Source: Cyclobacteriaceae bacterium
Lineage (GTDB): Bacteria > Bacteroidota > Bacteroidia > Cytophagales > Cyclobacteriaceae
NCBI GenBank assembly: GCA_026989505.1
Contig: JALSJF010000259.1
Span: 1 to 40,259, forward strand
DNA: 40,259 nt
Reading direction: 5' to 3'
The translations under genes were made by a program, and so were the position numbers. This document shows, in pieces, positions 11,120-32,136 of the stretch. The stretch's first letter is position 1, and every line of letters starts with the position of its first letter. The notes beneath the pieces were generated by a model. It did no database searches. It was not told the DNA's origin and worked only from the letters and a program-made list of their open reading frames with translations.

Positions 11120-11127
11120 CAAAAGAA
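11120..11127 (-). promoter_or_regulatory. candidate -7 element of the Mrp gene
   Basis: TTCTTTTG on the minus strand, one mismatch to TAnnTTTG, lies 38 nt upstream of the Mrp ATG. There is no clear -33 element. Weak candidate. Confidence 0.3.
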
Positions 11128-19792: not shown

Positions 19793-21205
19793 CTACAACA
19801 TAGTTGTAGGACACACATATTCAGTCATTTGCAGACCTTTTTCTTTCATGGCATTAAAACCGCCATTAATGTCAATTACCTTATCAATACCATTGGCTTT
19901 GAGTATGGAAGCCGCAATCATAGAGCGGTAGCCGCCAACACAATGCAGGTAATACTCCTGGTCTTTATCATACTCTGCCAGGTTTTCATGGATGAAGTCG
20001 AGCGGGCGGTTTACCACCATGTCGGTATCGAGGCGCTCAGCGTAGAATTCCGAAGCTTTGCGTACATCCACAATATTCACTTTACCGATCATCTTCATTT
20101 TCAGTTCTTCGGGCGAAATGGATACGATAGAATCAACCGGGCGCCCTGATTCCCTCCAGGCCTCAATGCCGCCTTTCAGGTAGCCGATGGTATTGTCATA
20201 GCCAACACGGGCCAGGCGGGTAACCACCTCTTCTTCGCGGCCTTCATCGGCTACGAATAATATAGGGGTGTCGATATTTTCAATCAGCGTGCCTACCCAG
20301 GGGGCAAAATTATCATCGATATTAAAGTTATAGCTGCCGGGGATGAAACCGTCTTTAAAAACTTGCTCATGCCGGGTATCCAGGATAACGGCACCTTTTT
20401 CCCTTGCCAGGGCTTCAAACGCTTCCGGTTCGTGGGCTACTACCCCGGTAGCAATAATATCGGCATAGCTGGTGTTAATGCCCTTGTTCATCATGGCATT
20501 TTTAGGGAAATACTGCGGAGGTTTCACCAAACCGGTCAATACTTCTTCAATAAATTCTTCTTTGGTCATGTCGGCCCGCAGGGCGTAATTCACTTCTTTC
20601 TGATGACCAAGGGTGTCCCATGTTTCTTCGCTCATGTTCTTGCCACAGGCAGAACCGGCCCCGTGGTTAGGGTAGATGATGATATCGTCCGGCAACTTCA
20701 TCAATTTATTGCGCAAGGAATCGTATAAATGCCCGGCCAGGTCCTGCTGGGTAAGATCCGACTTAACAGCGAGGTCAGGGCGGCCAACATCACCGATAAA
20801 TAAAGCGTCTCCGGTAAAGACACAATGTTGCTTGCCCTCTTCGTCAATCAGCACATAAGAAGATGATTCCATGGTGTGGCCGGGGGTATGCAATAATTTC
20901 AGGGTAATGTCACCGATTTTAAATTCCTCGTTGTCGGTACCTTCGTGGAAATCAAATTCCGCTTTGGCCGTAGGGCCAAAAACAATGGTGGCCCCGGTTT
21001 TTTTCGCCAGGTCTACATGCCCCGAAACAAAATCGGCATGGAAGTGGGTGAGGAATACGTATTTAATTTTGGCGCCATTCTCAGTGGCTTTTAAGATATA
21101 GGGGGTAGTCTCCCGCAGGGGGTCAATAATGGCGGCTTCGCCATTCGACTCAATGTAATATGCTGCCTCAGCAAGACATCCGGTATAGAGTTGTTCTACT
21201 TTCAT
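19793..21205 (-). CDS. persulfide dioxygenase (ETHE1-like MBL fold) fused to two rhodanese domains
   Basis: Oxidises glutathione- or protein-like persulfide to sulfite and can move sulfane sulfur through its rhodanese part. The MBL domain (1-235) has THFHAD (His 54, His 56, Asp 58), His 110 in HTPGH, Asp 133 and His 181, the ligand set of ETHE1 mononuclear iron enzymes, including the GRPDL segment. Rhodanese domain 1 (about 250-355) has VADEGR where the catalytic Cys loop should be, so it is probably inactive. Rhodanese domain 2 (about 365-465) keeps the active Cys at 422 in HCVGGYRS. Its promoter has a CRP-like site exactly 21 nt before a -7-like box. Confidence 0.93.
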   Translation of the reverse strand: MKVEQLYTGCLAEAAYYIESNGEAAIIDPLRETTPYILKATENGAKIKYVFLTHFHADFVSGHVDLAKKTGATIVFGPTAKAEFDFHEGTDNEEFKIGDITLKLLHTPGHTMESSSYVLIDEEGKQHCVFTGDALFIGDVGRPDLAVKSDLTQQDLAGHLYDSLRNKLMKLPDDIIIYPNHGAGSACGKNMSEETWDTLGHQKEVNYALRADMTKEEFIEEVLTGLVKPPQYFPKNAMMNKGINTSYADIIATGVVAHEPEAFEALAREKGAVILDTRHEQVFKDGFIPGSYNFNIDDNFAPWVGTLIENIDTPILFVADEGREEEVVTRLARVGYDNTIGYLKGGIEAWRESGRPVDSIVSISPEELKMKMIGKVNIVDVRKASEFYAERLDTDMVVNRPLDFIHENLAEYDKDQEYYLHCVGGYRSMIAASILKANGIDKVIDINGGFNAMKEKGLQMTEYVCPTTML

Positions 21206-21251: not shown

Positions 21252-21296
21252 CAATGATAGGGCTATCTTTTACCGCTGTCAGTGATATTTGTTACA
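21252..21296 (-). promoter_or_regulatory. CRP-like operator and -7 box of the persulfide dioxygenase gene
   Basis: On the minus strand the palindrome TGTAACAAATATCACT (21281-21296) is followed after exactly 21 nt by TATCATTG (21252-21259), one mismatch to TAnnTTTG. The operator centre would lie near -42, the class II activator position. The operator overlaps the stop codon of sulP by 3 to 5 bases. Four other promoters in the window share this architecture. Confidence 0.6.
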
Positions 21297-22989
21297 TAAG
21301 TGGTTTTTCCTGTGCATGATGCTGATCGAAGTGGTTGATGGCCGTTTCTATATCAACAAAACTTTTATCGGCTTCGCCAACCTGGTCGATACCTGACCGG
21401 TACAGGAAATCGCGGGTAGGGCCGATTAAGTTGCTGAAGTAAAAAACGATGTTTTGTTGCGCCAGTTCGTTAATCAGGTCGGTGAGGGCCAGGTAGGCGG
21501 TGGAATCGATGTGGGCGATGCTGTTGGCCTGTAAAATAACCAGGCGCAGCGCAGCCCCTTTTTTGGCAGCCTCTTTTTTAACCGAATCGATAAAATGATT
21601 GGTGTTGGCAAAATAAAGGTTGGCATCGTACCGGATGATGAGGACATCATCGCGGACAATCAGGTTAGCATAGCGCTCAATATTGCGGTACACGCGGCTG
21701 TCGGGGAAGCGGCCTAAAACGGCATAATGCGGTTTGGTGGTACGGTAAATCATGGCCACCAGCGACATGGCCACGCTGATACCAATGCCTTCTTTGATGC
21801 CCACGCCCAGGGTCACGGCAAAGGCAGTCAGCAGCATGAGAAAGTCTTCTTTACGGGTTTGCCAGAGAAACCGGGGGTACTGCAGGTCAATCAGGCCAAA
21901 CACCGCCACCATAATAATAGCTGCCAGGATTGATTTAGGCAGGTAATAGAATAAGGGGGTAAGAAACAGCAGGGTTAAGGCTACCAGGGCGGCACTGATA
22001 AGGCCGGCCATGTTGGTTTTGGCCCCGGCTTGCTCGTTTACTGCCGAACGGCTGAACCCCCCGGTGGTAGGAAAGCTGCCGAAGAACGAGCCTGCCACAT
22101 TGCCCAGCCCCAGGCCGATCAATTCCTGGTTGGCGTCAAGGGTATATTCATCCTTATGTTTGGCCTGAATGGCTTTGGCCACCGATACGGCTTCCATAAA
22201 AGCAATTAAGGCCAGGGTGAGGGCGGCCGGAATTAGTTCCTGCAGGTGGGGGCTGTTAACCTGCGGCACGGCAAACGCGGGGAGGCCCCGGGGTACCACC
22301 CCGACAATCGGTACCCCGGCTGCATCAAGGTGGAGGAATTGTACTGCCAGGATGCCCAGCACCACGGCCACCAGCGCCCCGGGTACCGCCTTATGTAGTT
22401 TTTTGATGTATTTAAGGATGATAATACCCGCCAGGCCAATAATCAGGGGGATAAAATTAAGGGCCGGTAGTTGCTGTACGGCCTCGTAAAGGATAATAAA
22501 AATATTGTTGTTGCGGGCAATGTCAACGCCCAGCAAATGTTTTAACTGGTTGAGGCCGATAATCAGGGCGGCCGCTGAAGTAAACCCGCTGATGACCGGT
22601 TTGGATAAAAAATTTACCAGGAAGCCCATGCGCATCAGGCCGAGGAGCAACTGTACCAGGCCCATCATAAAGGCCAGTAACAAGGCCAGGGCAATATAGT
22701 AGTCGCTGCCCACCTGGGCTATGGTAGTGAGGGCTGCAGCTACCAGCAGGGAGTCCATGGCCACCGGGCCAACCGCCAGTTGCCGGGAGGTGCCAAAAAT
22801 GGCGTAAACAAGCTGCGGTACCATGGCGGCATACAGCCCGTACACCGGGGGCAGGCCGGCAATCATGGCGTAGGCCATGCCCTGCGGGATAAGCATTACC
22901 CCAACGGTAAGGCCGGCCGTTAAATCTTTACTCAGCCAGGCCTTCTTATAGCCGGGCAGCCAGGTGAGAATAGGCAAATACTTTTTCAA
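21292..22989 (-). CDS. SulP/SLC26-family anion transporter with STAS domain
   Basis: A 565-residue inner-membrane transporter, sulfate being the commonest substrate; bicarbonate is an alternative in this family. The N-terminal signature GLTVGVMLIPQGMAYAMIAGLPPVYGLYA lies at about 27-55 and GSFFGSFPTTGGFSRSAVN at about 300; about ten to twelve membrane segments follow the SLC26 pattern. The C-terminal STAS domain (about 440-550) has HIDSTAYLALTDL. It has its own operator/-7 promoter (23018-23062) shared back-to-back with the rhodanese lipoprotein gene. Export of the sulfite or sulfate made by sulfide oxidation would fit the context but is inferred. Confidence 0.92.
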   Translation of the reverse strand: MKKYLPILTWLPGYKKAWLSKDLTAGLTVGVMLIPQGMAYAMIAGLPPVYGLYAAMVPQLVYAIFGTSRQLAVGPVAMDSLLVAAALTTIAQVGSDYYIALALLLAFMMGLVQLLLGLMRMGFLVNFLSKPVISGFTSAAALIIGLNQLKHLLGVDIARNNNIFIILYEAVQQLPALNFIPLIIGLAGIIILKYIKKLHKAVPGALVAVVLGILAVQFLHLDAAGVPIVGVVPRGLPAFAVPQVNSPHLQELIPAALTLALIAFMEAVSVAKAIQAKHKDEYTLDANQELIGLGLGNVAGSFFGSFPTTGGFSRSAVNEQAGAKTNMAGLISAALVALTLLFLTPLFYYLPKSILAAIIMVAVFGLIDLQYPRFLWQTRKEDFLMLLTAFAVTLGVGIKEGIGISVAMSLVAMIYRTTKPHYAVLGRFPDSRVYRNIERYANLIVRDDVLIIRYDANLYFANTNHFIDSVKKEAAKKGAALRLVILQANSIAHIDSTAYLALTDLINELAQQNIVFYFSNLIGPTRDFLYRSGIDQVGEADKSFVDIETAINHFDQHHAQEKPLM

Positions 22990-23017
22990 GCGGCAACTGT
23001 TAAATGCGTAAAGCCGA

Positions 23018-23062
23018 CAAAACTAGGCAAAGGTAAGCAGGCTGTTTGTGATCTCTGTTACA
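23018..23062 (-). promoter_or_regulatory. CRP-like operator and -7 box of sulP
   Basis: On the minus strand TGTAACAGAGATCACA (23047-23062) is followed after exactly 21 nt by TAGTTTTG (23018-23025), a perfect TAnnTTTG. The ATG at 22989 lies 28 nt past the box. Confidence 0.65.
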
Positions 23063-23080
23063 ACCGGCAAAATAAAGATT

Positions 23081-23125
23081 TGTGACCTGCGGTACATTAT
23101 CCATCTAAAAATAATCATAATTTTG
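23081..23125 (+). promoter_or_regulatory. CRP-like operator and -7 box of the rhodanese lipoprotein operon
   Basis: TGTGACCTGCGGTACA (23081-23096) is followed after exactly 21 nt by TAATTTTG (23118-23125), a perfect TAnnTTTG. The promoter-proximal half-site GTACA is the weakest in the set. The ATG at 23187 lies 61 nt past the box. The sulP operator lies 34 bp further upstream on the same face-to-face intergenic region. Confidence 0.6.
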
Positions 23126-23186
23126 TGGTTCTCTGAACAACTATTGTAAAGTAGGTGTTTTTGTTTCAACCGTAAATAGTGCACAA

Positions 23187-23618
23187 ATGAAAAAATTGAT
23201 TGTTCTGACCCTGGTGTTATCCTTACCTGTTTTATATGCATGCACCCGTTCTAATTCGCAACCCCAATCGGCAACTACAGAAGTACAACAAACTGTTATA
23301 GCAAAAAATGTAGCTGCGGAAGATTTTGAAAAATTGATAAAAAGTAAGGAGAATGCTATTTTGCTCGATGTACGTACCCCCAAGGAAGTTGCCGAGGGCC
23401 ATATCGCCAACGCTACCAACATCGATTATTTCAGCCCTGAATTTAAGGCCGAACTGGCCAAACTTGATAAAACCCGGCCGGTGCTGGTCTATTGCCATTC
23501 GGGCAGGCGCAGTGGCAATACCATGGCGGCTTTGCAGGAAATGGGCTTTAGCGAAGTTTATAACCTGGAAACCGGTATTGTTGGCTGGGAAGCAGCCGGC
23601 CTGCCTATTGAAAAATAA
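23187..23618 (+). CDS. rhodanese-like lipoprotein
   Basis: An exported single-domain sulfurtransferase. A lipobox (VLYAC, Cys 19) closes the signal peptide, so the protein is probably lipid-anchored facing the periplasm. The rhodanese domain covers about 42-142 with DVRTPKEVAEGHI and the active loop CHSGRRS (Cys 103). It likely accepts sulfane sulfur from thiosulfate or persulfides outside the cytoplasm. It is the first gene of an operon with a small Cys-containing membrane protein (2-nt gap) and a hydroxylase-like protein. Confidence 0.92.
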   Translation: MKKLIVLTLVLSLPVLYACTRSNSQPQSATTEVQQTVIAKNVAAEDFEKLIKSKENAILLDVRTPKEVAEGHIANATNIDYFSPEFKAELAKLDKTRPVLVYCHSGRRSGNTMAALQEMGFSEVYNLETGIVGWEAAGLPIEK

Positions 23619-23620
23619 CC

Positions 23621-23845
23621 ATGCAGAAATTTTTTAACGGCTGGAATTTTTTCCGGGTATTTCGTTTACTTGCCGGCCTGGCCCTCGTAAGTTATGGCTA
23701 TACGAAAGGCGACTGGTTACTGGCCGGCCTGGGGGCCATGTTCAGCTTTATGGCGATGGCCAACACCGCTTGCGGGCCGTTTGCCCGGGATTGCAAGGTA
23801 GAGTATAAGGAGACCAAAGAAGATGGGGCTGGGGGAGATCATTAA
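23621..23845 (+). CDS. small DUF2892/YgaP-like membrane protein
   Basis: A 74-residue protein with two membrane segments (about 13-29 and 33-48) and the sequence NTACGPFARDC, which places two cysteines at the end of the second helix. Proteins of this kind sit next to or are fused to rhodaneses (as in E. coli YgaP), where they may guide sulfur species at the membrane. It lies 2 nt after the rhodanese lipoprotein and overlaps the next gene by 23 nt. Confidence 0.78.
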   Translation: MQKFFNGWNFFRVFRLLAGLALVSYGYTKGDWLLAGLGAMFSFMAMANTACGPFARDCKVEYKETKEDGAGGDH

Positions 23846-24692
23846 AAATGCTTATACCGGGTATTGGAACTACCTGGTGTACGAAATAACCCACCCGGGC
23901 TGGCATAACTATTTTTATATGCTGCTGGTGTTGTCGGTGCTGGTCTGGGTATTGGAGATTGTCTTTCCCTGGCGCCAGCAGCAGGGCCTGTTTCGTAAGG
24001 ATTTCTGGTTGGATGCCTTTTATATGTTCTTCAACTTCTTCCTGTTTTCGCTGGTAGCCTATAATGCCCTGTCGAATGTGGCCGTTGAGGCTTTTAACAG
24101 TTTTCTGGGCTGGTTTGGGATTACCAATATTGTTGCTATCCGGGTGGCGGAAGCCCCGCTGTGGGCGCAGTTTTTGCTGATGTTTGTGGTGGCTGACTTT
24201 ATTCAGTGGCTGGTGCATATCATGCTGCACCGGGTGCACTGGCTGTGGCAGTTTCATAAGGTGCACCACTCGGTGCGGGAGATGGGCTTTGCCGCCCACC
24301 TGCGCTTCCACTGGCTGGAAACCATTGTTTACAAGTCAATCCTGTATGTACCCCTGACCATGATTGGGTTTGGGATAGACGATTTCTTTGTACTGCACGC
24401 TTTCACTGTCTTAATCGGCCACCTGAACCATGCCAATGTGCCGCTTACCTACGGTCCCTTAAAATATCTGTTGAATAACCCGGCCATGCACATCTGGCAC
24501 CATGCCAAAAAAATGCCGGCTTCGCACCCCTATGGCATAAATTTCGGCATTTCGCTAAGCCTCTGGGATTACATCTTTGGCACCGCCCACATCCCCTGCG
24601 ATGGCCGTGATATCGAGTTGGGCTTTGATGGGGTAGAAAACTACCCCGAGGGGTTTATTGCCCAGGTGCTGGAGCCGTTTAAGCGTAAATAG
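23823..24692 (+). CDS. sterol desaturase/fatty acid hydroxylase superfamily membrane protein
   Basis: An integral-membrane di-iron oxygenase of the fatty-acid-hydroxylase superfamily. Four or five hydrophobic segments surround the His boxes HIMLHRVH, HKVHH, HLNHAN and HIWHH, which together would bind two irons. The substrate is unknown; lipids such as sphinganine, carotenoids or ornithine lipids are typical for this superfamily. The 23-nt overlap with the DUF2892 gene and lack of an intervening promoter make it the third gene of the rhodanese operon, an unexpected partner for sulfur metabolism. Confidence 0.9.
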   Translation: MGLGEIIKNAYTGYWNYLVYEITHPGWHNYFYMLLVLSVLVWVLEIVFPWRQQQGLFRKDFWLDAFYMFFNFFLFSLVAYNALSNVAVEAFNSFLGWFGITNIVAIRVAEAPLWAQFLLMFVVADFIQWLVHIMLHRVHWLWQFHKVHHSVREMGFAAHLRFHWLETIVYKSILYVPLTMIGFGIDDFFVLHAFTVLIGHLNHANVPLTYGPLKYLLNNPAMHIWHHAKKMPASHPYGINFGISLSLWDYIFGTAHIPCDGRDIELGFDGVENYPEGFIAQVLEPFKRK

Positions 24693-24766
24693 ATAGCACA
24701 CCCGGAAAGGAGGCGTATTGTTGTTAATCTCACCCGGTTTATTGGTGAAAAAATGCCTTACCCCGG

Positions 24767-24931
24767 ATTATTCACGAAAAGCGTGAATAATGATGAGGAC
24801 AAAATATTTTACCCTCAAATTCGGGTCATGCTTAATCTTAGGTTCATCCTGTATTTTGTGCATAACATGTTGTTTTACATTATTTTGCAGTTCATCAGCC
24901 CTGCGGGCGAAAAATCCATATGAATTTTTCG
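24767..24931. repeat. bimodular palindromic repeat, copy B
   Basis: The left module (24767-24791) has the same ATTATTCACG / CGTGAATAAT arms as copy A. The right module (24908-24931) is the same CATATG-centred palindrome with one arm mismatch, again preceded by CATCAGCCCTG and followed by GGTTAA. The modules are 116 bp apart here against 56 bp in copy A, with unrelated sequence between. Together with flanks this fills much of the 24693-25238 gap. The remainder is AT-rich with a weak -7-like TTACTTTG at 25146-25153. Confidence 0.75.
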
Positions 24932-25238
24932 GGTTAAGGCGGTGCCTTAGATTGTAATAATCCAGGCCTTCATCCTGTTGGCGAAAACAAATTTTAGTAT
25001 TCTCTTGCAATAAAGCCCGGTTTGGATACGGTCTGTTTTAACTGGAAAAGTCGTCTAACAGTCGGAAAAATAACTGTAAAGGAAGTTTTGCTGCCAACTC
25101 ATTTTTTTTTACTGAAAAAGGCAACGTAAAAACCTGTTTATGCGTTTACTTTGGGAAATTTTATAACGATTGAACAAAGATTAAAGTTTTTTATTTATTT
25201 AACCGTTAAAACGTATGTTAATCCAAATTTCTGCAACT

Positions 25239-25961
25239 ATGAAAAGGTTACTTTTATTCACGACCCTTGTGGTCTTTTCGTATGGCTGTAAAAAAAACGC
25301 CACTGAAGACCCGGCTCCGGTGAAATGCCTGCCGGTGAAGGTTATTTTTGAGGGAGACGAAACCTATGTGTACGATTTCGATGACACCGGGCTGATATCG
25401 TTGATTACCCTGGACCCGGGCAACGGGCTGGCAGAAACTTACGCCTACACCTGGCAGGATGGCAGAATAGCCAATATCGTATATACCGACAGCGCGGACA
25501 ACTCCACTTTACAACTCGTTCCCGAATACGATGGTGCCCTGATTACCAAGATTTCGGCTGCGGATCTCGGTGAGCTCCGACTGAATTACAACGGTGAACA
25601 ACTTACCAGTGCCGGATTCTGGGTAATAGATGGCAACCAAATTTTGCAAACCATGGAATACAACTTTTCGTACGATGCCAATGGCAACCTTAGCCGTTCG
25701 GAAATGAGTTTTCCCCAGGCACCCAATGATCCTCCGACAGTTACCGAGTATGAATACACCGGACTAACCGGGGAAAACCCGATGTATAATACTTGGTTTA
25801 TAGATTTTCTGGATATGTCTCTGGCCATGAACTTTCCCACGAAAATTACCAAATATTCGGTTACGGAGACTTTTACCATAACCCTGAACGAAGAAGGACT
25901 ACCGGAGAGAATGGAAGGCGACAAAGGCACACTGATAACAGTGGTGTACAACTGCAACTAA
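25239..25961 (+). CDS. putative lipoprotein of unknown function
   Basis: A 240-residue exported protein from ATG 25239. An upstream ATG at 25215 would put eight residues before the signal peptide and is less likely. The lipobox is VFSYGC (Cys about 17), followed by KKNATEDPAP. The rest is beta-rich with repeating YDFDDTG, YTWQDGR and FSYDANGN motifs about 20-25 residues apart, reminiscent of YD-repeat/DUF4595-like surface proteins. No catalytic motif is seen. It has its own strong terminator. Its role in relation to the sulfur genes on both sides is unknown. Confidence 0.75.
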   Translation: MKRLLLFTTLVVFSYGCKKNATEDPAPVKCLPVKVIFEGDETYVYDFDDTGLISLITLDPGNGLAETYAYTWQDGRIANIVYTDSADNSTLQLVPEYDGALITKISAADLGELRLNYNGEQLTSAGFWVIDGNQILQTMEYNFSYDANGNLSRSEMSFPQAPNDPPTVTEYEYTGLTGENPMYNTWFIDFLDMSLAMNFPTKITKYSVTETFTITLNEEGLPERMEGDKGTLITVVYNCN

Positions 25962-25988
25962 GGGTAGTTTGCCTGATAAATGGCTCAC

Positions 25989-26018
25989 AGCCGCCCTTTT
26001 GCAGGGCGGCTTTTTTAT
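25989..26018 (+). terminator. intrinsic terminator of the lipoprotein gene
   Basis: Perfect 8-bp arms AGCCGCCC / GGGCGGCT with a 7-nt loop, followed by TTTTTTATT, start 28 nt after the stop codon. Confidence 0.9.
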
Positions 26019-26028
26019 TGGATTGAAA

Positions 26029-26064
26029 TTAACCTGAAAAATTTTTGTGAATTTTTCAGGTTAA
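26029..26064. repeat. 36-bp perfect hairpin between convergent genes
   Basis: Perfect 15-bp arms TTAACCTGAAAAATT / AATTTTTCAGGTTAA flank a 6-nt loop. The arms resemble the right module of the palindromic repeat (CTGAAAAATT versus GCGAAAAATT) and could be a relative. It may also act as a barrier for minus-strand transcripts from the dipeptidase operon. Confidence 0.6.
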
Positions 26065-26125
26065 CCTTCTTGTCAATCCCGGGGGTGAAACATGCGGGCA
26101 GGGCCATGCCCCGGGCAACGGCCGG

Positions 26126-26635
26126 TTATTGCCGGGCGGCCACCATTTTTTTGATCCCGGCCTGCACCAATACCGTGATTACCGAAAACAAGGCAAATAA
26201 GGCGGTCACCCATTTCAGGGTGGTAAACATACCCATAACAGTGCCCAGGCCGATGTGGGTTGCGGGCAGTTCATTCAGCAGGTATAATTGGGTGAGGTTT
26301 TCGGCATAATCGAACAAAAAGGCAGCAAACACAGCCGTGATGAACACCCTTTTGAAAAGTGCATGGGTAACTAGTAGCTGCCCCATGAGGAAGAGAAAGG
26401 CCGTATAAATTACCGGATAGACATAATCCCACAACATCATTTTTTTGTAAGCCGGTATTTTCCCCGGGGCTAATTTCAGGAAGAAATTTTCATAAACAGC
26501 CTGGCCATCATAGGCGAAGGTAATGTCCGGTACCTGTAAATTTTCGTTCTCCCGGCCGGTTGTGGTGGGCTTGAGGATTACGGTATTGAACAGGACAATC
26601 ACCAGGAACAGCAGGGTGGCCACTGTTTTTTTCAT
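26126..26635 (-). CDS. four-helix membrane protein of unknown function
   Basis: A 169-residue protein with four predicted membrane segments (about 5-21, 74-92, 96-112 and 137-160) and a roughly 45-residue loop after the first that contains the only polar stretch. No family was recognised. It starts 4 nt inside the end of the dipeptidase gene (ATGA), so the two are coupled. Confidence 0.75.
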   Translation of the reverse strand: MKKTVATLLFLVIVLFNTVILKPTTTGRENENLQVPDITFAYDGQAVYENFFLKLAPGKIPAYKKMMLWDYVYPVIYTAFLFLMGQLLVTHALFKRVFITAVFAAFLFDYAENLTQLYLLNELPATHIGLGTVMGMFTTLKWVTALFALFSVITVLVQAGIKKMVAARQ

Positions 26636-27807
26636 GACTTTGGCAGGTTAAGTAAAAGGAAATCGCGGATGTTACCGCCCATAATCTTTTTAATTTCCTC
26701 GGGGTTAAACCCTTCTGCGAGCAAGGCTTCTACCAGCAAAGGCAGGCCGGTAACATCAAAATGCATGGCAATTGCCCCGTCAAAATCACTACCCAGGGCC
26801 ACATGGTCAACGCCAATTAAATCAGCGGCATACCGTATGGCCCTGGCGGTGGCCCGGGCATCGGTACCGCAAACGGCCGGCTCAAACAAGGCAATGCCCA
26901 CCAGCCCCCCGCCAGCGGCAATTCTGCGCAGGTGGGCATCCGATAGGTTACGCACGTTGTTGCAGGTGCCTTTTACCCCCGTATGCGAAACGATCAGCGG
27001 CCGGGTAGCGATGGCCAGGATGTCGTCAATCAGTTGGGGGGAAGCGTGGGCCAGGTCCACAAGCATGTGTTTTTCTTCCATGCGTTGGATAACCTTGCGG
27101 CCAAAGTCTGTTAGCCCGCCTTTACTTACCCCGTGGGCCGAGCCGCCAAGCTTATTGTCGAAAAAATGTACCGGGGCCATCATGCGGATACCGGCCTGGT
27201 ACATCACCTCCACGTTGTCAAGTTCGCCTTCCAGCACCTGCATGCCTTCAACCCCCAGGAACCCTGCCGTAAGTTGCGGGTTTTGCTGGCGGTCGTTTAT
27301 CAGCTTACCCAGTTCACGGGCAGAGGTAACCACTCTGAACTGCCCTGCCGATTCTTCGGCAAAGCCGTATAAGGCCCGGCATTGTACCAGCGCCCTTTCC
27401 TTTAAGCTGAACCATGATTTCACCGGCCGGCCTTCGGCAATATACAGGGTGGTAATATTATCGGTATCCCCGGTATTATGGTCGAAGTTCATGTTTTTGG
27501 GTGTTTTACTAACGATAGTAAAGGCCTGCAGGGCCATGTTGGCCGCAAGCATACGGGGTATATCTATATGGCCGTAGTCATGTTTTTGCAGCAGGTTGCG
27601 CTGCCATAGCAGGGCATCGCAATGCAGGTCGGCAATAAAGGGCAGGGTTTGATAAATCTCCTGTGCCTGCGTTGAAACGTTATACGGGGGCAGCAGGGTA
27701 GAGGTGTTGTATTTTCTGTCTACAATGGGTGGTACAATAAAAATGGTGCCGAGGTAGAGCACCAGAATTGCCGCTATACCATAGGAAAAAAAACGGATTA
27801 TCTTCAT
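26632..27807 (-). CDS. membrane dipeptidase, peptidase family M19
   Basis: Zinc dipeptidase of the renal dipeptidase family, hydrolysing dipeptides, often those with a C-terminal D-residue. An N-terminal membrane anchor (about 7-27) faces the catalytic domain outward. Metal-site motifs appear in order: IADLHCD (about 58-64), the bridging Glu in FLGVEGM, VDLAHAS, VSHTG and GSDFDG. The length of 391 residues is normal. It starts 24 bp after the crp gene stop and overlaps the following gene by 4 nt, making a crp-dipeptidase-membrane-protein run. Cleavage of Cys-Gly is a known activity of this family and would fit a thiol context, but is not shown. Confidence 0.92.
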   Translation of the reverse strand: MKIIRFFSYGIAAILVLYLGTIFIVPPIVDRKYNTSTLLPPYNVSTQAQEIYQTLPFIADLHCDALLWQRNLLQKHDYGHIDIPRMLAANMALQAFTIVSKTPKNMNFDHNTGDTDNITTLYIAEGRPVKSWFSLKERALVQCRALYGFAEESAGQFRVVTSARELGKLINDRQQNPQLTAGFLGVEGMQVLEGELDNVEVMYQAGIRMMAPVHFFDNKLGGSAHGVSKGGLTDFGRKVIQRMEEKHMLVDLAHASPQLIDDILAIATRPLIVSHTGVKGTCNNVRNLSDAHLRRIAAGGGLVGIALFEPAVCGTDARATARAIRYAADLIGVDHVALGSDFDGAIAMHFDVTGLPLLVEALLAEGFNPEEIKKIMGGNIRDFLLLNLPKS

Positions 27808-27831
27808 TTGTTCAGCGCAACTGTGGAGGTT

Positions 27832-28464
27832 TCAAATATTGATTATTTTGATGCGGTTTCTGCCCAGGCGGATGTATCCGTTGGTTTCCAGTTTCTTGAG
27901 CAGGCGGCTTACGGCTTCCCGCGATGAGTTAAGTTCCTGGGCGATTTGCTGGTGGGTGATATGAAACTCGCGGGTATGCAGGGCCTGTTCCCGGTCGGAG
28001 AGGTATTTCAGCAGGCGGTTATCGAGGCTCTCGAAAGCCACCGAGTCAAGGGCCGCCAGCATCTCCTCAAAGCGGGCCGAGTAGGTTTGCAGGATAAAAT
28101 TACGCCAGGAGCGGAAGTTGCGCATCCATTCGTCCATGTAATGAAAAGGGATCAGCAGCAGGTGGGTGTCGATTTCGGCAATGGCCTTGATCTTGCTTTT
28201 TTCCTGCTTCATGCAGCAGGTTACGGTCATTACGCAGGTGTTGCCGCCATCAAGGTAGTAGAGTAATATTTCATGGCCATCGTCATCCTGGCGGACGATT
28301 TTAAGGAGTCCTTTGGTAATAAGCGGGGTGCTTTTAATGAATTCCCCGATTTTAATTATGGAATCCCCTTCGTTTACGCGTACTTCCTTGGCTACATTGG
28401 CAATAGCATCTACCAGTTCCGGTTCCTTAAAGAAGGGAAAATGTTGATGGATCAGATCATGCAT
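27832..28464 (-). CDS. Crp/Fnr-family transcriptional regulator with clustered cysteines, candidate sulfide sensor
   Basis: A 210-residue regulator with an N-terminal cyclic-nucleotide-binding-like beta barrel (about 20-115), a dimer helix, and a C-terminal winged helix with recognition helix SSREAVSRLLKKL (about 173-185). The barrel carries Cys 77, Cys 83 and Cys 84 in GNTCVMTVTCC. The Arg-Ser phosphate-binding motif for cAMP is not apparent, so it probably does not sense cAMP. The cysteines could react with persulfides, an inference. It lies next to sqr, and five CRP-like operators occur in the surrounding sulfur genes, making it the best candidate for their regulator. No such operator was found at its own start. 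Confidence 0.9.
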   Translation of the reverse strand: MHDLIHQHFPFFKEPELVDAIANVAKEVRVNEGDSIIKIGEFIKSTPLITKGLLKIVRQDDDGHEILLYYLDGGNTCVMTVTCCMKQEKSKIKAIAEIDTHLLLIPFHYMDEWMRNFRSWRNFILQTYSARFEEMLAALDSVAFESLDNRLLKYLSDREQALHTREFHITHQQIAQELNSSREAVSRLLKKLETNGYIRLGRNRIKIINI

Positions 28465-28473
28465 GGTGCAAAT

Positions 28474-28509
28474 ATTTTAGGCTTCCGAAAAATTTCGGAA
28501 GCCTAAAAT
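28474..28509. repeat. 36-bp near-perfect palindrome at the crp start
   Basis: Seventeen-base arms beginning ATTTTAGGCTTCCGAAA flank two central A. It lies 10 nt upstream of the crp ATG and 22 nt after the sqr stop. The orientation (T-rich outer 5' arm, A-rich outer 3' arm) does not give a T tail on either strand, so it is not a standard terminator. It may be an mRNA hairpin shielding the crp start, or a processing or attenuation element. Confidence 0.7.
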
Positions 28510-28531
28510 TAAACTAATTCGGCTTAAAATA

Positions 28532-29878
28532 TCAGAAATTATAACCTTTTAGCATCATGTTCCAATACATAAAAGGCAGGCCGTAGCGTTTCAGCAACCA
28601 CATCGGGTAACTGGCTTTGCCGGTATCGAAAAATTTGCTCAGCAAGGGATCGGAACTGCGCACATTGTCATACTTAAACTCAGCCAGCAGCATGCGGTTG
28701 TGGGCCACTACCAGCGGGCATGATGAATAGCCGTTGTACCCTTCATAAGCGGCATCTTTGCCATCCATTACAGCCAGCAGGTTTTTCACAATGGTTGGGG
28801 CTTGCTTACGGATAGCGGCCCCGGTGCGGGCGGTGGGCAGGTCGGTAACATCCCCGGCACCAAAAACATTTTTATAAAACCTGCTTTGCAGGGTGTGCTT
28901 GTCCACGGCCATCCAGCCTTTATCGGGCCCATCCGGGTTGGCCAGCTTGGTTTTCCGGAACCAGCCCGGGGCCGATTGCGGGGGCGCCAGGTGCAGCATG
29001 TCATATTTTATCACAAACCTTGCACCCTCTTTCAATTCGTTTAAAGGGCCGTTTGCTTCTGCAAATTCAACTATTTGGCCGTTTTCCGGGTAATAACCTT
29101 TAAAGCCGGCACGGTTGGTGTCATCGTTGTGCACATAATCGGTGCGCCCTTCGGGCAAGGCCAGGCGTTCATAATGCGCCTCTTTCTTCTCGCCATCAAT
29201 TTTCACCAGCTTATAGCCATACCGCTGGGCTACGTCATACACCTCGTTAACATAATGTTTAAGTTCGGTTTTAAAGGGCTCGGTGCCAAAAATCACCGTG
29301 CCCGGGGTGGCAAAGACTATGGTGGTTTTGTCTTCCAGTTTATTTCTGCGGATATGGTCGGCTGTGAGGTACATGATTTTTTGCGGGGCCCCGGGGCATT
29401 TTATCGGGGTGGCCGGTTGGGTAAACAAGGCCACGCCACCTTTAAAGTTTCGCAATACCTCCCAGGTATAATCGGGGTCAATATAGTTTGAGCACACCCC
29501 GTTTTTGCCGTAGGCCTCTTTCAGCCCCTCTATGCCATCGAGGTTGATTTGTATGCCGGGGGCCACAATCAGGTACTCATAGGCTACCACATCGCCACTG
29601 CGCAAAATTACCTCCATGCTGTCAGGGTCAATAGTCTCAACATAGTCCTTTATCCAGGTAGCTTTTTTGGGTATCTGCCTTTTTTCTTTTCTTACCGTGG
29701 CCGATTTTTTCATCAGGCCGGCCCCTACCAGGGTATAGGCCGGTTGGTAATAGTGCTCTTCCGAGGGTTCGATGATGGCTACGTCAAGTCCTTTACGGGC
29801 CCGCAGCAGTTGGGCAGCTACCATTATGCCTCCGGTACCACCACCAATTACAACTATTTGATGTTTGTGCGTTGTCAT
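28532..29878 (-). CDS. sqr: sulfide:quinone oxidoreductase, mitochondrial-SQOR-like type
   Basis: FAD enzyme at the inner membrane that oxidises sulfide to a persulfide/polysulfide and reduces quinone. The FAD-binding IGGGTGG lies at 11-17. Redox cysteines: Cys 129 (NGVCSNY), Cys 161 (IKCPGAPQK) and Cys 387 (SSCPLV). The last two motifs match those of human SQOR almost word for word. A second FAD contact is FGAGDVTDLPTA at about 339. The C-terminal amphipathic tail with aromatic residues (MYWNMMLKGYNF) would touch the membrane. It is divergent from thioredoxin over a 128-bp region with a shared operator. Confidence 0.94.
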   Translation of the reverse strand: MTTHKHQIVVIGGGTGGIMVAAQLLRARKGLDVAIIEPSEEHYYQPAYTLVGAGLMKKSATVRKEKRQIPKKATWIKDYVETIDPDSMEVILRSGDVVAYEYLIVAPGIQINLDGIEGLKEAYGKNGVCSNYIDPDYTWEVLRNFKGGVALFTQPATPIKCPGAPQKIMYLTADHIRRNKLEDKTTIVFATPGTVIFGTEPFKTELKHYVNEVYDVAQRYGYKLVKIDGEKKEAHYERLALPEGRTDYVHNDDTNRAGFKGYYPENGQIVEFAEANGPLNELKEGARFVIKYDMLHLAPPQSAPGWFRKTKLANPDGPDKGWMAVDKHTLQSRFYKNVFGAGDVTDLPTARTGAAIRKQAPTIVKNLLAVMDGKDAAYEGYNGYSSCPLVVAHNRMLLAEFKYDNVRSSDPLLSKFFDTGKASYPMWLLKRYGLPFMYWNMMLKGYNF

Positions 29879-29943
29879 TTCTCTTTGCTTTAAAGGTGAT
29901 AAATTTTATTGCTATAAATATCGCCAAAAAAAAATGATATCTT

Positions 29944-29988
29944 TGTGACAAACATCACCTATGGGAAGGCCCGGACTCACTTCCTTTG
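29944..29988 (+). promoter_or_regulatory. CRP-like operator and -7 box of thioredoxin, shared with sqr
   Basis: TGTGACAAACATCACC (29944-29959) is followed on the plus strand after exactly 21 nt by TTCCTTTG (29981-29988), one mismatch to TAnnTTTG. The thioredoxin ATG lies 18 nt past the box. On the minus strand the same palindrome lies 23 nt before TATTTATA (29913-29920), a poorer box for sqr, with a run of nine T in the spacer. One dimer could therefore serve both genes. Confidence 0.6.
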
Positions 29989-30006
29989 TAAAAAAAATAA
30001 GAAGTA

Positions 30007-30369
30007 ATGGCGACAATTAAATTGACCACAGAGGATTTCAAAAACAAGGTTTTTGACTATACTAAACATAACGAATGGAAATATGCAGGGGACAAACCGG
30101 CCCTGATTGACTTTTATGCCGATTGGTGCGGCCCTTGTAAAATGGTAGCGCCAATTTTGGAGGAATTATCGGAAGAATACGGAGATAAGCTGTATATTTA
30201 CAAGGTAGATACCGAGGCCGAACAAGAATTATCGGCCGTATTCGGCATCAGGAGTATTCCCAGTATGCTGTTTATTCCGGTAAACGACCAGCCGAAAATG
30301 CAGGCCGGGGCTTTGCCGAAGAATGTATTGAAAGAGATTATTGACAAAGAACTGCTGCAAATAGCTTAA
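30007..30369 (+). CDS. thioredoxin
   Basis: A 120-residue cytoplasmic thiol-disulfide oxidoreductase with the classical active site WCGPCKM (Cys 41, Cys 44) and the cis-Pro segment IRSIPSM. It is slightly longer at the N-terminus than E. coli TrxA. Its position opposite sqr, under a shared operator, suggests a role in reducing persulfides or releasing sulfide from them; housekeeping thioredoxin function cannot be excluded. A strong terminator follows. Confidence 0.94.
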   Translation: MATIKLTTEDFKNKVFDYTKHNEWKYAGDKPALIDFYADWCGPCKMVAPILEELSEEYGDKLYIYKVDTEAEQELSAVFGIRSIPSMLFIPVNDQPKMQAGALPKNVLKEIIDKELLQIA

Positions 30370-30398
30370 GAAAACCAATTTAGGTTGTTGTTTGATTG

Positions 30399-30444
30399 AG
30401 ACAGCCCTTGGACGCTTCCCGCGGACAAGTGGCTGTCTTTTTTT
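30399..30444 (+). terminator. intrinsic terminator of thioredoxin
   Basis: Arms AGACAGCC(CTTG) and (CAAG)(T)GGCTGTCT close a loop of about 15 nt and are followed by TTTTTTT, 30 nt after the stop codon and just before the end of the convergent C-S lyase gene. Confidence 0.85.
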
Positions 30445-30446
30445 GG

Positions 30447-31628
30447 CTAAAGGCTACGGACTGCCGTGGCCAGTTGGGCCATCCCCTGGCGGATCATTTT
30501 CCTGGGCGAAGCAATGTTCATGCGGGCAAAGCCGTCTCCTCCCGGGCCATAGGTGTAGCCCTGGTTGAGGGCCAGGCCGGCCTTTTCAACGAGGAATTTT
30601 TGCAGCTCGTCATTGCTGAAGCCTAACGGCCGGAAGTCAAGCCAGATTTGGTACGTGCCCTCGGGCACAGGGAAACGGATGGCCGGGATTTCTGCCGCCA
30701 GGTAGCTGGCTATATAGTTTATGTTTCCTTGTAAATACGTCAGCATTTCATCTAACCAGGCATCGCCTGCGGTAAACGCAGTTTGCAGGGCAATGTTGGC
30801 AAAGGCATTGCTTTTATCGAGGTGGTAGCGCTCAATCTGCTTTTTAATGGCCTTGTGGTAGGCCCTGTTGGGGGTGAATACAAAGGAGTCAACCAGGCCG
30901 GGCATACCAAACGTTTTGCCTGCCGAAGAAACCATGATGATAGTATCGCTGTACCGGGCATAAACGGTAAGCATGCCGAGGTACTGGTGGGGGGGATACA
31001 CGATATCGCCATGGATCTCATCGGTGATTACCAGAACATTATGGCGGGTGCAGATAGCGGCAATCCTGGCCAGCTCTTCTTCCTGCCATACCCGGCCCAC
31101 GGGGTTATGCGGGCTGCATAAGAGCAATATTTTGGTGCCGGGTTCTTTGGCCACGCCCTCGAGGTGATCAAAATCAATTTCGTAGCGGTTGCCGGCAAAT
31201 GTTAAAGGGTTGTTGACGATTTTCCGGCCCAGGGACTTGATGATCCCCATAAAAGCCTGGTACACGGGGGGTTGAATAATTACGCCTTCCCCGGGAGCCG
31301 TAAATGCATCGATGATGGCCGCTATACTGGTGTTGACACTGGGCGTAAACAACAACCCTCTGGGGTTGAGCTGCAGGTTGTACCTGCGCAGGTACCAGGC
31401 AGCCAGGGCTTCTTTAAGGCGGGGCGATTTGGTTTCGTAGCCAAACAGCCCTTTTGCTGCGCGTGCCGACAACGCCTGTACCAGCTCAGGCATTACCCTG
31501 AAATCAGTGTCGGCTACCCAAAAAGGCAGCAGCTCCTCCTGGCCAAATACGGCCTTCAGGAAAGCCGGGTTATAGCGGACAAAGTTTTGGCGGTCGGTTT
31601 CCGGGTATTCATCAAAATTAACAGGCAT
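30447..31628 (-). CDS. MalY/PatB-type PLP-dependent C-S lyase (cystathionine beta-lyase)
   Basis: Fold-type I aminotransferase-like enzyme of the MalY/PatB group, which splits cystathionine or cysteine to thiol or sulfide, pyruvate and ammonia. Motifs: FWVADTDFRVMPEL near the start, CSPHNPVGRVW, ITDEIHGDIVY, and the PLP-lysine loop SSAGKTFGMPGL. GDGFARMNIASPR near the C-terminus holds the carboxylate-binding Arg. The ATG at 31628 (MPVNFDEYP) is preferred; a further ATG at 31694 adds 22 residues not expected in the family. It could be a source of sulfide for the neighbouring oxidation genes, which is inference. Confidence 0.92.
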   Translation of the reverse strand: MPVNFDEYPETDRQNFVRYNPAFLKAVFGQEELLPFWVADTDFRVMPELVQALSARAAKGLFGYETKSPRLKEALAAWYLRRYNLQLNPRGLLFTPSVNTSIAAIIDAFTAPGEGVIIQPPVYQAFMGIIKSLGRKIVNNPLTFAGNRYEIDFDHLEGVAKEPGTKILLLCSPHNPVGRVWQEEELARIAAICTRHNVLVITDEIHGDIVYPPHQYLGMLTVYARYSDTIIMVSSAGKTFGMPGLVDSFVFTPNRAYHKAIKKQIERYHLDKSNAFANIALQTAFTAGDAWLDEMLTYLQGNINYIASYLAAEIPAIRFPVPEGTYQIWLDFRPLGFSNDELQKFLVEKAGLALNQGYTYGPGGDGFARMNIASPRKMIRQGMAQLATAVRSL

Positions 31629-31769
31629 AAGCAATAAGATTTTGGGCTGAAGGTAGTGATTTAGCCCGGGAAATTCATCAGTTTTTGCTGACAAATTTTA
31701 CGCTGAAATAGCGGCCGTCCGGGAATCTGGCAGACCCCGGGCGAAATAATAGCAAAAAATACCGGCTTA

Positions 31770-31814
31770 TGTGATACTGTTCACGTTTACCCCGGTAAAA
31801 TAGCCGTTGCTTTG
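31770..31814 (+). promoter_or_regulatory. CRP-like operator and -7 box of the single-domain rhodanese
   Basis: TGTGATACTGTTCACG (31770-31785), the best-matching palindrome of the set, is followed after exactly 21 nt by TTGCTTTG (31807-31814), one mismatch to TAnnTTTG. The ATG at 31849 lies 34 nt past the box. On the other side, toward the C-S lyase gene, no good box occurs at that distance. Confidence 0.62.
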
Positions 31815-31848: not shown

Positions 31849-32136
31849 ATGGATTTAAGAGAACTTATTAATCAACCGACAACTACGGTGGTAGATGTAC
31901 GTTCGGAATTTGAGTTTATGGCCGGTAATGTTGAGGGGTCAGTAAATATCCCTTTGCATGAGGTACCGGAAAGAGTTGAAGAGTTTAAAAACATGCCGGG
32001 CAATATTGTGGTATGTTGTGTGTCCGGGGCCCGTAGTGGCCAGGCGGTAGCCTTTTTGCAGATGCATGGCGTAGAGAATATTGTTAACGGGGGTAGTTGG
32101 ATGGATATCAACTACCTGAAATACAACGCAGCGTAA
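31849..32136 (+). CDS. single-domain rhodanese
   Basis: A 95-residue cytoplasmic sulfurtransferase (GlpE/PspE size, no signal peptide). VVDVRSEFEFMAGNVEGS is the CH2A-like segment and CVSGARSG the active loop with Cys 57; an extra Cys 56 adjoins it. It likely carries persulfide sulfur between SQR, low-molecular thiols and the dioxygenase. It is monocistronic, with its own operator-containing promoter and a terminator. Confidence 0.92.
   Translation: MDLRELINQPTTTVVDVRSEFEFMAGNVEGSVNIPLHEVPERVEEFKNMPGNIVVCCVSGARSGQAVAFLQMHGVENIVNGGSWMDINYLKYNAA

Follow-up and report, generated by a model that had tools for sequence, protein, structure and literature searches.

Five promoters within a stretch of 40,259 nucleotides (nt) from a Cyclobacteriaceae bacterium (Bacteroidota; GenBank assembly GCA_026989505.1, contig JALSJF010000259.1; the whole stretch is called the window below) shared one exact geometry, in which a 16-bp palindrome was separated by 21 nt from a TAnnTTTG-type -7 box read towards the gene. 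Palindrome, spacer and box together are termed the composite. The genes behind these promoters were those of a persulfide dioxygenase-like protein, a SulP permease, an operon starting with a rhodanese lipoprotein, a thioredoxin and a single-domain rhodanese, and a Crp/Fnr regulator was encoded among them. The five-promoter observation was confirmed as real and far beyond chance, and spacing, conservation and gene content agreed in pointing to the common control that an earlier reading of this DNA (the first-pass annotation) had proposed. We consider it probable that the promoters belong to one sulfide/persulfide regulon, driven by the Crp/Fnr protein of the window as a class II activator.

Five window promoters with one operator-to-box spacing

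All five palindromes listed in the first-pass annotation could be read directly from the window sequence, each with its -7 box and a 21-nt spacer, and the boxes were of the quality described, two perfect and three with one mismatch. On the minus strand, the persulfide dioxygenase operator TGTAACAAATATCACT (21281-21296) stood 21 nt from the box TATCATTG (21252-21259), and the sulP operator TGTAACAGAGATCACA (23047-23062) was paired with the perfect box TAGTTTTG (23018-23025). On the plus strand, the rhodanese lipoprotein operon had the operator TGTGACCTGCGGTACA (23081-23096) and the perfect box TAATTTTG (23118-23125), and the single rhodanese had the operator TGTGATACTGTTCACG (31770-31785), the weakest of the five, with the box TTGCTTTG (31807-31814). 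The remaining operator, TGTGACAAACATCACC (29944-29959), was shared: thioredoxin lay on its plus-strand side with the box TTCCTTTG (29981-29988), and sqr, encoding a sulfide:quinone oxidoreductase-like protein, lay with crp on the opposite, minus-strand side, where a possible box GATATTTA (29915-29922) carried two mismatches. Because of these two mismatches, and because the corresponding box in the same-genus genome G056, with one mismatch, was shifted one nt further out and none was present at that place in G092, sqr was left out of the promoters securely assigned to this geometry. Such mirror boxes were uncommon overall, occurring with at most one mismatch at 11 of 124 operators, compared with a mean of 1.3 at shifted positions.

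The 124 composite sites came from other genera, the same-genus record being excluded. With them the consensus TGTRA-N6-TCAC of the first-pass annotation was refined to TGTRAC-N4-GTYACW; the two added bases came from columns that had not been seeded, where C followed TGTRA at a frequency of 0.90 and TYAC was preceded by G at 0.89. When a matrix trained on these sites scored ~80,000 window positions, the rhodanese lipoprotein promoter ranked first (28.5), the persulfide dioxygenase promoter second (21.1, as 21252-21296), the sulP promoter third (19.8), the sqr-directed site at the shared operator, not one of the five promoters of the first-pass annotation, fourth (16.0), the thioredoxin promoter fifth (11.3) and the single-rhodanese promoter eighth (5.1). 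The composite was also kept before homologous genes in the nearest relatives and was present in other families; conservation had been set as a test by the first-pass annotation. In the relatives, composites with at most one mismatch preceded homologues of the dioxygenase (G092, G014), the thioredoxin (G056, G092, G014) and the single rhodanese (G056 and G092, 71% and 60% identical), and in G092 the homologues of sulP and of the lipoprotein-type rhodanese each had a composite with two mismatches.

Frequency and spacing of the composite

The palindrome alone was not enriched, either in the window (10 matches with at most one mismatch, 9.6 expected) or in the own genome, a 3.5-Mb draft of 273 contigs (22 exact matches, 21 for the reversed pattern). 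The composite, with at most one mismatch, was found 10 times in the own genome and not once as the reversed pattern, and four of the ten matches fell inside the 40-kb window (binomial P = 3.4e-6); allowing two mismatches gave 23 matches against 12 reversed, five of the 23 being in the window. Since the motif was derived from the window, there is some circularity in these counts from the own genome; the independent tests are a family-wide spacing scan and the matrix trained on other genera.

Across a family set of 98 genomes (own genome included), composites with at most one mismatch numbered 426 against 105 in the control, exceeding it in 71 genomes and falling below it in 16. When 31 gap lengths were allowed between perfect half-sites and box, 67 of 149 matches in this set occurred at the window spacing (a lower bound that misses at least locus L183), 10 at one nt longer, 6 at one nt shorter and 66, or about two per spacing, over the remaining 28 values. 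With the window's own site excluded, 66 sites at the window spacing entered the gene tests, and 30 of the 66 off-spacing places were used as controls. A gene started within 60 nt of the box at 52 of the 66 sites versus 5 of the 30 controls, and the site lay inside a frame of at least 150 codons in 3 of 66 versus 17 of 30. Three of these 30 off-spacing loci, L178, L183 and L186, were not clean controls because they also had a composite at the window spacing, perfect in L183 and with one mismatch in the other two.

The same spacing recurred around crp orthologues. Within 10 kb of the gene in 79 named loci (the same-genus locus L209 excluded), 124 composites were found in 58 loci, compared with one in the control; 59 of 70 perfect matches were at the window spacing, six at one nt less, two at one nt more and three elsewhere, with none for the reversed control. 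A gene start lay within 60 nt at 103 of the 124 composites, overlapping frames included. Loci with composites included those of Flavobacteriaceae, Reichenbachiella, Fulvivirga, Lewinella, Aureispira, Chitinophagales and Prolixibacteraceae. No composite was present within the flanks of the Saprospiraceae (L253), Marinilabiliaceae (L277) and Carboxylicivirga (L249) loci; the Carboxylicivirga genome had three elsewhere. In Maribacter orientalis DSM 16471, all 12 composites of the genome (one match in the control) were located inside 25.5 kb of one contig.

Genes behind the composite in relatives

Concentration of the composite before sulfur genes, as opposed to unrelated genes, had been set as a test by the first-pass annotation, and it was seen in both sets of relatives. 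Behind the 66 family-genome sites (66 genes, best 25 of 31 Pfam families), the first gene matched Rhodanese 21 times, metallo-beta-lactamase (MBL) fold 17, Thioredoxin 8, fatty acid hydroxylase 6, TauE 4, MFS 4, Crp helix-turn-helix (HTH) 3 and SulP once. Behind the named-locus sites (122 genes scanned, best 25 of 30 families) the tally was Rhodanese 38, MBL 35, TauE 16, SulP 13, YgaP-like 8, fatty acid hydroxylase 6, DUF983 6, Pyr_redox_2 5 and Crp HTH 3. Rhodanese, MBL, TauE, SulP and Crp were all absent by Pfam from the genes of the 20 off-spacing controls that had an open reading frame, and the sole AhpC-TSA/Thioredoxin match among these 20 was that of L183, itself a perfect composite at the window spacing.

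In two further loci the genes were identified by eye. L163 (G027:C79:1-9245) had four perfect composites in ~6.3 kb, one for each of four genes encoding a TauE protein, an MBL-rhodanese protein, a universal stress protein and an MFS transporter. In L132 (G077:C46), a perfect composite preceded the gene of an ArsR-type regulator, which may link the regulon to SqrR/BigR-like control.

Association of the composite with the proposed regulator

Relatives of the window Crp (E to 1e-25) were encoded in 90 of the 98 family genomes. These 90 genomes contained 419 composites against 100 in the control, and the eight genomes lacking Crp contained 7 against 5. In a phylum set of 198 genomes, in which Crp was called at E to 1e-40 and the refined composite was used, all 42 genomes with Crp inside the class had a composite (153 matches, 23 in the control) versus none of the 7 without, a comparison whose Fisher value ignores kinship. 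Motif and regulator are thus linked inside the class, and this link weakens beyond it. The composite also preceded relatives of crp itself at 3 of the 66 family-genome sites. Elsewhere in the own genome, no composite was found within the loci surrounding two other Crp-like genes (C241, C168) and a sub-cutoff match (C65). The Crp/Fnr protein of the window, the candidate put forward in the first-pass annotation, is supported as the regulator by its co-occurrence with the motif inside the class, by linkage, by composites that precede crp genes and by the agreement of its recognition helix (see below).

Features of the three-cysteine Crp/Fnr protein

The regulator gene (27832-28464, minus strand) lay among the sulfur genes, as noted in the first-pass annotation, and its product contained HTH_Crp_2 and cNMP_binding domains. 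Membership of the CRP/FNR superfamily was evident from matches over cutoff to PF13545, PF00325 and PF00027, and from Crp proteins being the best fold matches of its model. Its only cysteines were C77, found in all 113 aligned rows (118 loci minus five with two Crp genes), C83, found in 111, and C84, found in 107. A conserved cysteine pair also occurs in persulfide-responsive regulators. The AlphaFold model had a mean predicted local distance difference test score of 89, but 61 for residues 81-90; C77 was predicted just ahead of a short helix (80-84) that holds C83 and C84. This region aligned with the cAMP cassette of CRP.

Neither cAMP-CRP nor FNR accommodated the protein. cAMP-CRP has a phosphate-binding cassette with GE..RS, the Glu and Arg positions of which were not kept here, and the CRP equivalog model scored 47.6 bits against a cutoff of 266. 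FNR binds its [4Fe-4S] cluster through four cysteines, of which three are N-terminal, whereas the window protein has only Cys77, 83 and 84, and the Fnr model scored 26.1 bits against a cutoff of 228. The Crp domains and fold likewise set it apart from the CsoR, ArsR and sigma-54 activator folds of CstR, SqrR/BigR and FisR.

The recognition helix R182-E183-x-x-S-R187 aligned with SRETVGR of CRP, in which E181 contacts the corresponding half-site base pair. Where residue 183 was E (30 loci), half-sites had G 81 times and A 37 times; where it was V (60 loci), G 25 times and A 243 times, with no site to score in 23 of the 113 rows. Fisher's test had made this covariation look decisive, but it was set aside as proof, the tree having two changes, or three when more rows were included, and at most three independent pairs. 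Because there are just three E/V changes on the tree, the covariation is consistent with binding by this protein without proving it.

Genes in the window and the predicted wider regulon

The dioxygenase-like protein (19793-21205, minus strand) combined a metallo-beta-lactamase domain with two rhodanese stretches (Pfam Lactamase_B, Rhodanese); no dioxygenase model scored over cutoff for this protein, and its likely substrate was inferred from its domains. Next to it was the SulP family permease with a STAS domain (21292-22989, minus strand; TIGR00815 over cutoff, PF00916). The operon on the plus strand began with a rhodanese (23187-23618; PF00581), probably a lipoprotein given its signal-like start with LYAC in the translation, followed by a small membrane protein that was DUF2892-like by eye and had no Pfam or NCBIfam match (23621-23845), and a fatty acid hydroxylase family protein (23823-24692; PF04116), of a family that also recurred behind the composite elsewhere (see above). 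Directly upstream of crp and on the same strand was the sulfide:quinone oxidoreductase-like gene (28532-29878; Pyr_redox_2), whose best NCBIfam model was the SQR type III subtype at 197 bits, below the cutoff of 525. The thioredoxin (30007-30369; TIGR01068 over cutoff) and the single-domain rhodanese (31849-32136; PF00581) were on the plus strand. Between these two was a PatB-family C-S lyase gene (30447-31694, minus strand; TIGR04350 over cutoff), before which no composite with up to two mismatches was found. Directly following crp was a membrane dipeptidase gene by eye (26632-27807, minus strand), an order kept in L104 (G056), L105 (G092) and L106 (G014).

When two mismatches were allowed, 18 of the 23 composites of the own genome were outside the window, and these 18 were compared with the three nearest relatives. 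For nine of them, a homologous gene (44-91% identical) stood behind a composite with at most one mismatch in at least one relative. By eye, the targets conserved in this way were a YgaP-like gene by a second Crp (C39), a thioredoxin-TPR protein (C87), sufB (C171), a NifX-like protein (C209), an MFS transporter (C251), a pyridoxal phosphate enzyme of Cys/Met metabolism (C1), two OsmC proteins (C78, C201) and a protein of unknown function (C214). Judged from these predicted sites, the regulon is wider than the window. Palindromes without the 21-nt spacing at L017, L007 and L016 (C248, C96 and C244 of the own genome), near genes that were cytochrome- or porin-like by eye, were set aside and probably belong to another Crp/Fnr regulon.

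Proposed mechanism and alternative explanations

A centre at -41.5 is the position of a class II activator, and by the spacing of the -33 element the right half-site of such a palindrome overlaps the place of that element. Mapped promoters of Flavobacterium psychrophilum have the sigma-A box TAnnTTTG at -12 to -5 (PMC9723704), and a box at -12 to -5 therefore places the window operators at -41.5, close to the -42 estimated in the first-pass annotation and at the operator-to-box distance of a class II activator promoter. We infer binding by the Crp/Fnr protein, activation rather than repression, and the nature of its signal. The protein encoded at 27832-28464 would bind TGTRAC-N4-GTYACW-like palindromes as a dimer and, centred at -41.5 over the place of the -33 element, would activate the vegetative sigma factor at the TAnnTTTG box. 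Its likeliest signal, given the cysteines and the gene content, is sulfane sulfur in the form of persulfide or polysulfide, probably sensed at C77 and C83 together with C84. The predicted output would comprise Sqr to oxidize sulfide, the dioxygenase to oxidize persulfide, rhodaneses for sulfur transfer, SulP and thioredoxin. Since crp is downstream of sqr, feedback on the regulator may follow. By its predicted sites, this gene set resembles the sulfide/persulfide detoxification regulons of persulfide-responsive regulators.

Several results weigh against a single regulon of this kind under the window Crp. All window sites scored below the training mean of the matrix (34.3, sd 5.9), and two of them, those of thioredoxin and the single rhodanese, fell under its lowest training site (15.1); the 31770 site was unremarkable by score, position 11120 reaching 6.4, and is supported by the homologues of its rhodanese that sit behind composites in G056 and G092. 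The sqr-side box was poor and unconserved. No homologue behind a composite was found in the three nearest relatives for the other nine outside composites, which included an outer-membrane-like gene (C171), malate dehydrogenase (C2) and matches inside genes, and 21 of the 79 named crp loci had no composite at up to one mismatch. Outside the class, the composite was present in 9 of 21 genomes with Crp (11 matches, 5 in the control) and in 25 of 128 genomes without it (27 matches, 20 in the control), perhaps because other classes use other promoter types. One family genome with no Crp at E 1e-25, G071, had four composites against none in the control; another regulator or a missed gene is possible there. 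The E/V covariation was not significant by contrasts. The case for a persulfide signal consists of gene content and cysteines, and oxidants, nitric oxide and haem are possible signals as well.

Chance pairing of palindromes with box-like sequences in AT-rich DNA would fit the chance-level frequency of the palindrome by itself, and is an extremely improbable account of the data given the spacing peak, the controls and the conservation before homologous genes. We find it rather unlikely that the composites mark a general redox or anaerobic Crp/Fnr regulon of which the sulfur genes are only part: further targets included SufB, cytochrome bd oxidase, cytochromes c, a 1-Cys peroxiredoxin, a universal stress protein and, by eye, OsmC proteins, but the largest target classes were rhodanese, MBL-fold dioxygenase-like, TauE and SulP proteins, and some of the rest are also sulfur-linked.

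The second Crp/Fnr paralogue, on C39, may share these operators, or might even be their main user, alone or in turn with the window Crp, which would then not be the main regulator. Its recognition helix, TAREVISR, is similar, and its gene is directly upstream of a composite driving the small YgaP-like membrane protein, both of which count against the window Crp, and the arrangement is kept in G056; but the C39 protein lacks C83 and C84, composites are dense around orthologues of the window Crp in other families, and the window Crp is encoded between its own putative targets, which together make the paralogue an unlikely principal. Quite unlikely, too, is that Crp acts as a repressor that occludes the -33 region, which the right half-site overlaps, and is released on persulfidation of its cysteines in the manner of CstR or SqrR/BigR, which are repressors. 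BigR is so termed in one article (PMC7315123), but a repressor would need no spacing fixed to one nucleotide, the rigid centre at -41.5 is an activator position, and the operator's own AC is fixed where the TTTG of a -33 element would lie (by construction of the pattern). Class II activation by the window Crp thus stays the reading we favour.

Little is known of how Bacteroidota control transcription. If the regulon is as proposed, one motif would suffice to predict, from the sequence, the sulfide regulons of many Bacteroidota, would point to a three-cysteine regulator and would define a type of TAnnTTTG promoter that depends on an activator. Otherwise unexplained genes, of the fatty acid hydroxylase, DUF983, OsmC and YgaP-like types, would be tied to a sulfide response. 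Whether the three-cysteine Crp/Fnr proteins form an undescribed class of sulfane-sulfur sensors, class-wide and perhaps beyond (PDB 3DV8 has cysteines at the C77 and C83 positions), that are class II activators with nucleotide-fixed spacing and in which E or V at residue 183 sets TGTG or TGTA, so that natural covariation would trace binding specificity, is a broader idea on which we are evenly divided.

Comparison with known regulators

Class II activation by CRP/FNR proteins and persulfide-responsive regulons are both known. To our knowledge, the known persulfide regulators belong to other protein families than Crp/Fnr. Among the papers listed in a literature search, in which several result lists were capped, subscription papers were mostly missing and the slash in Crp/Fnr was not searchable, there was no Crp/Fnr-run sulfide regulon of Bacteroidota, and the available parts of the RedB paper (PMC9603854) and of a paper on CRP/FNR evolution (PMC12531629) described none. 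Persulfidation of a Crp-like protein was reported for Acinetobacter baumannii (PMC7315123).

One similar protein in the phylum is PgRsp of Porphyromonas gingivalis, a Crp/Fnr protein outside the named families that was modelled on PDB 3DV8 and has a Cys76, a redox phenotype and autoregulation; it reportedly binds haem and acts on hmu and bcp, and no sulfide regulon is described for it in the available part of that work (PMC6955866). Judged by this description, PgRsp may be a relative of the window Crp. PDB 3DV8 itself, a Crp/Fnr protein of Eubacterium rectale and thus from outside Bacteroidota, was the best match in both sequence and fold, with cysteines at the C77 and C83 positions and Ile at that of C84. 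Class II promoters of Escherichia coli CRP and FNR have the same dimer operator at -41.5 in place of an upstream element, the same Crp fold and an SRE..R helix, whereas the window system has TGTRAC half-sites around N4, a TAnnTTTG box and three conserved cysteines, and does not keep the GEL..RS cassette of CRP. With CstR and SqrR it shares conserved cysteines and, by prediction, control of genes of the sqr, persulfide dioxygenase, rhodanese and TauE or YeeE type, as it does with FisR and BigR (PMC7315123). Those regulators have CsoR, ArsR or sigma-54 activator folds, whereas the regulator of the window is a Crp/Fnr protein placed at vegetative promoters.

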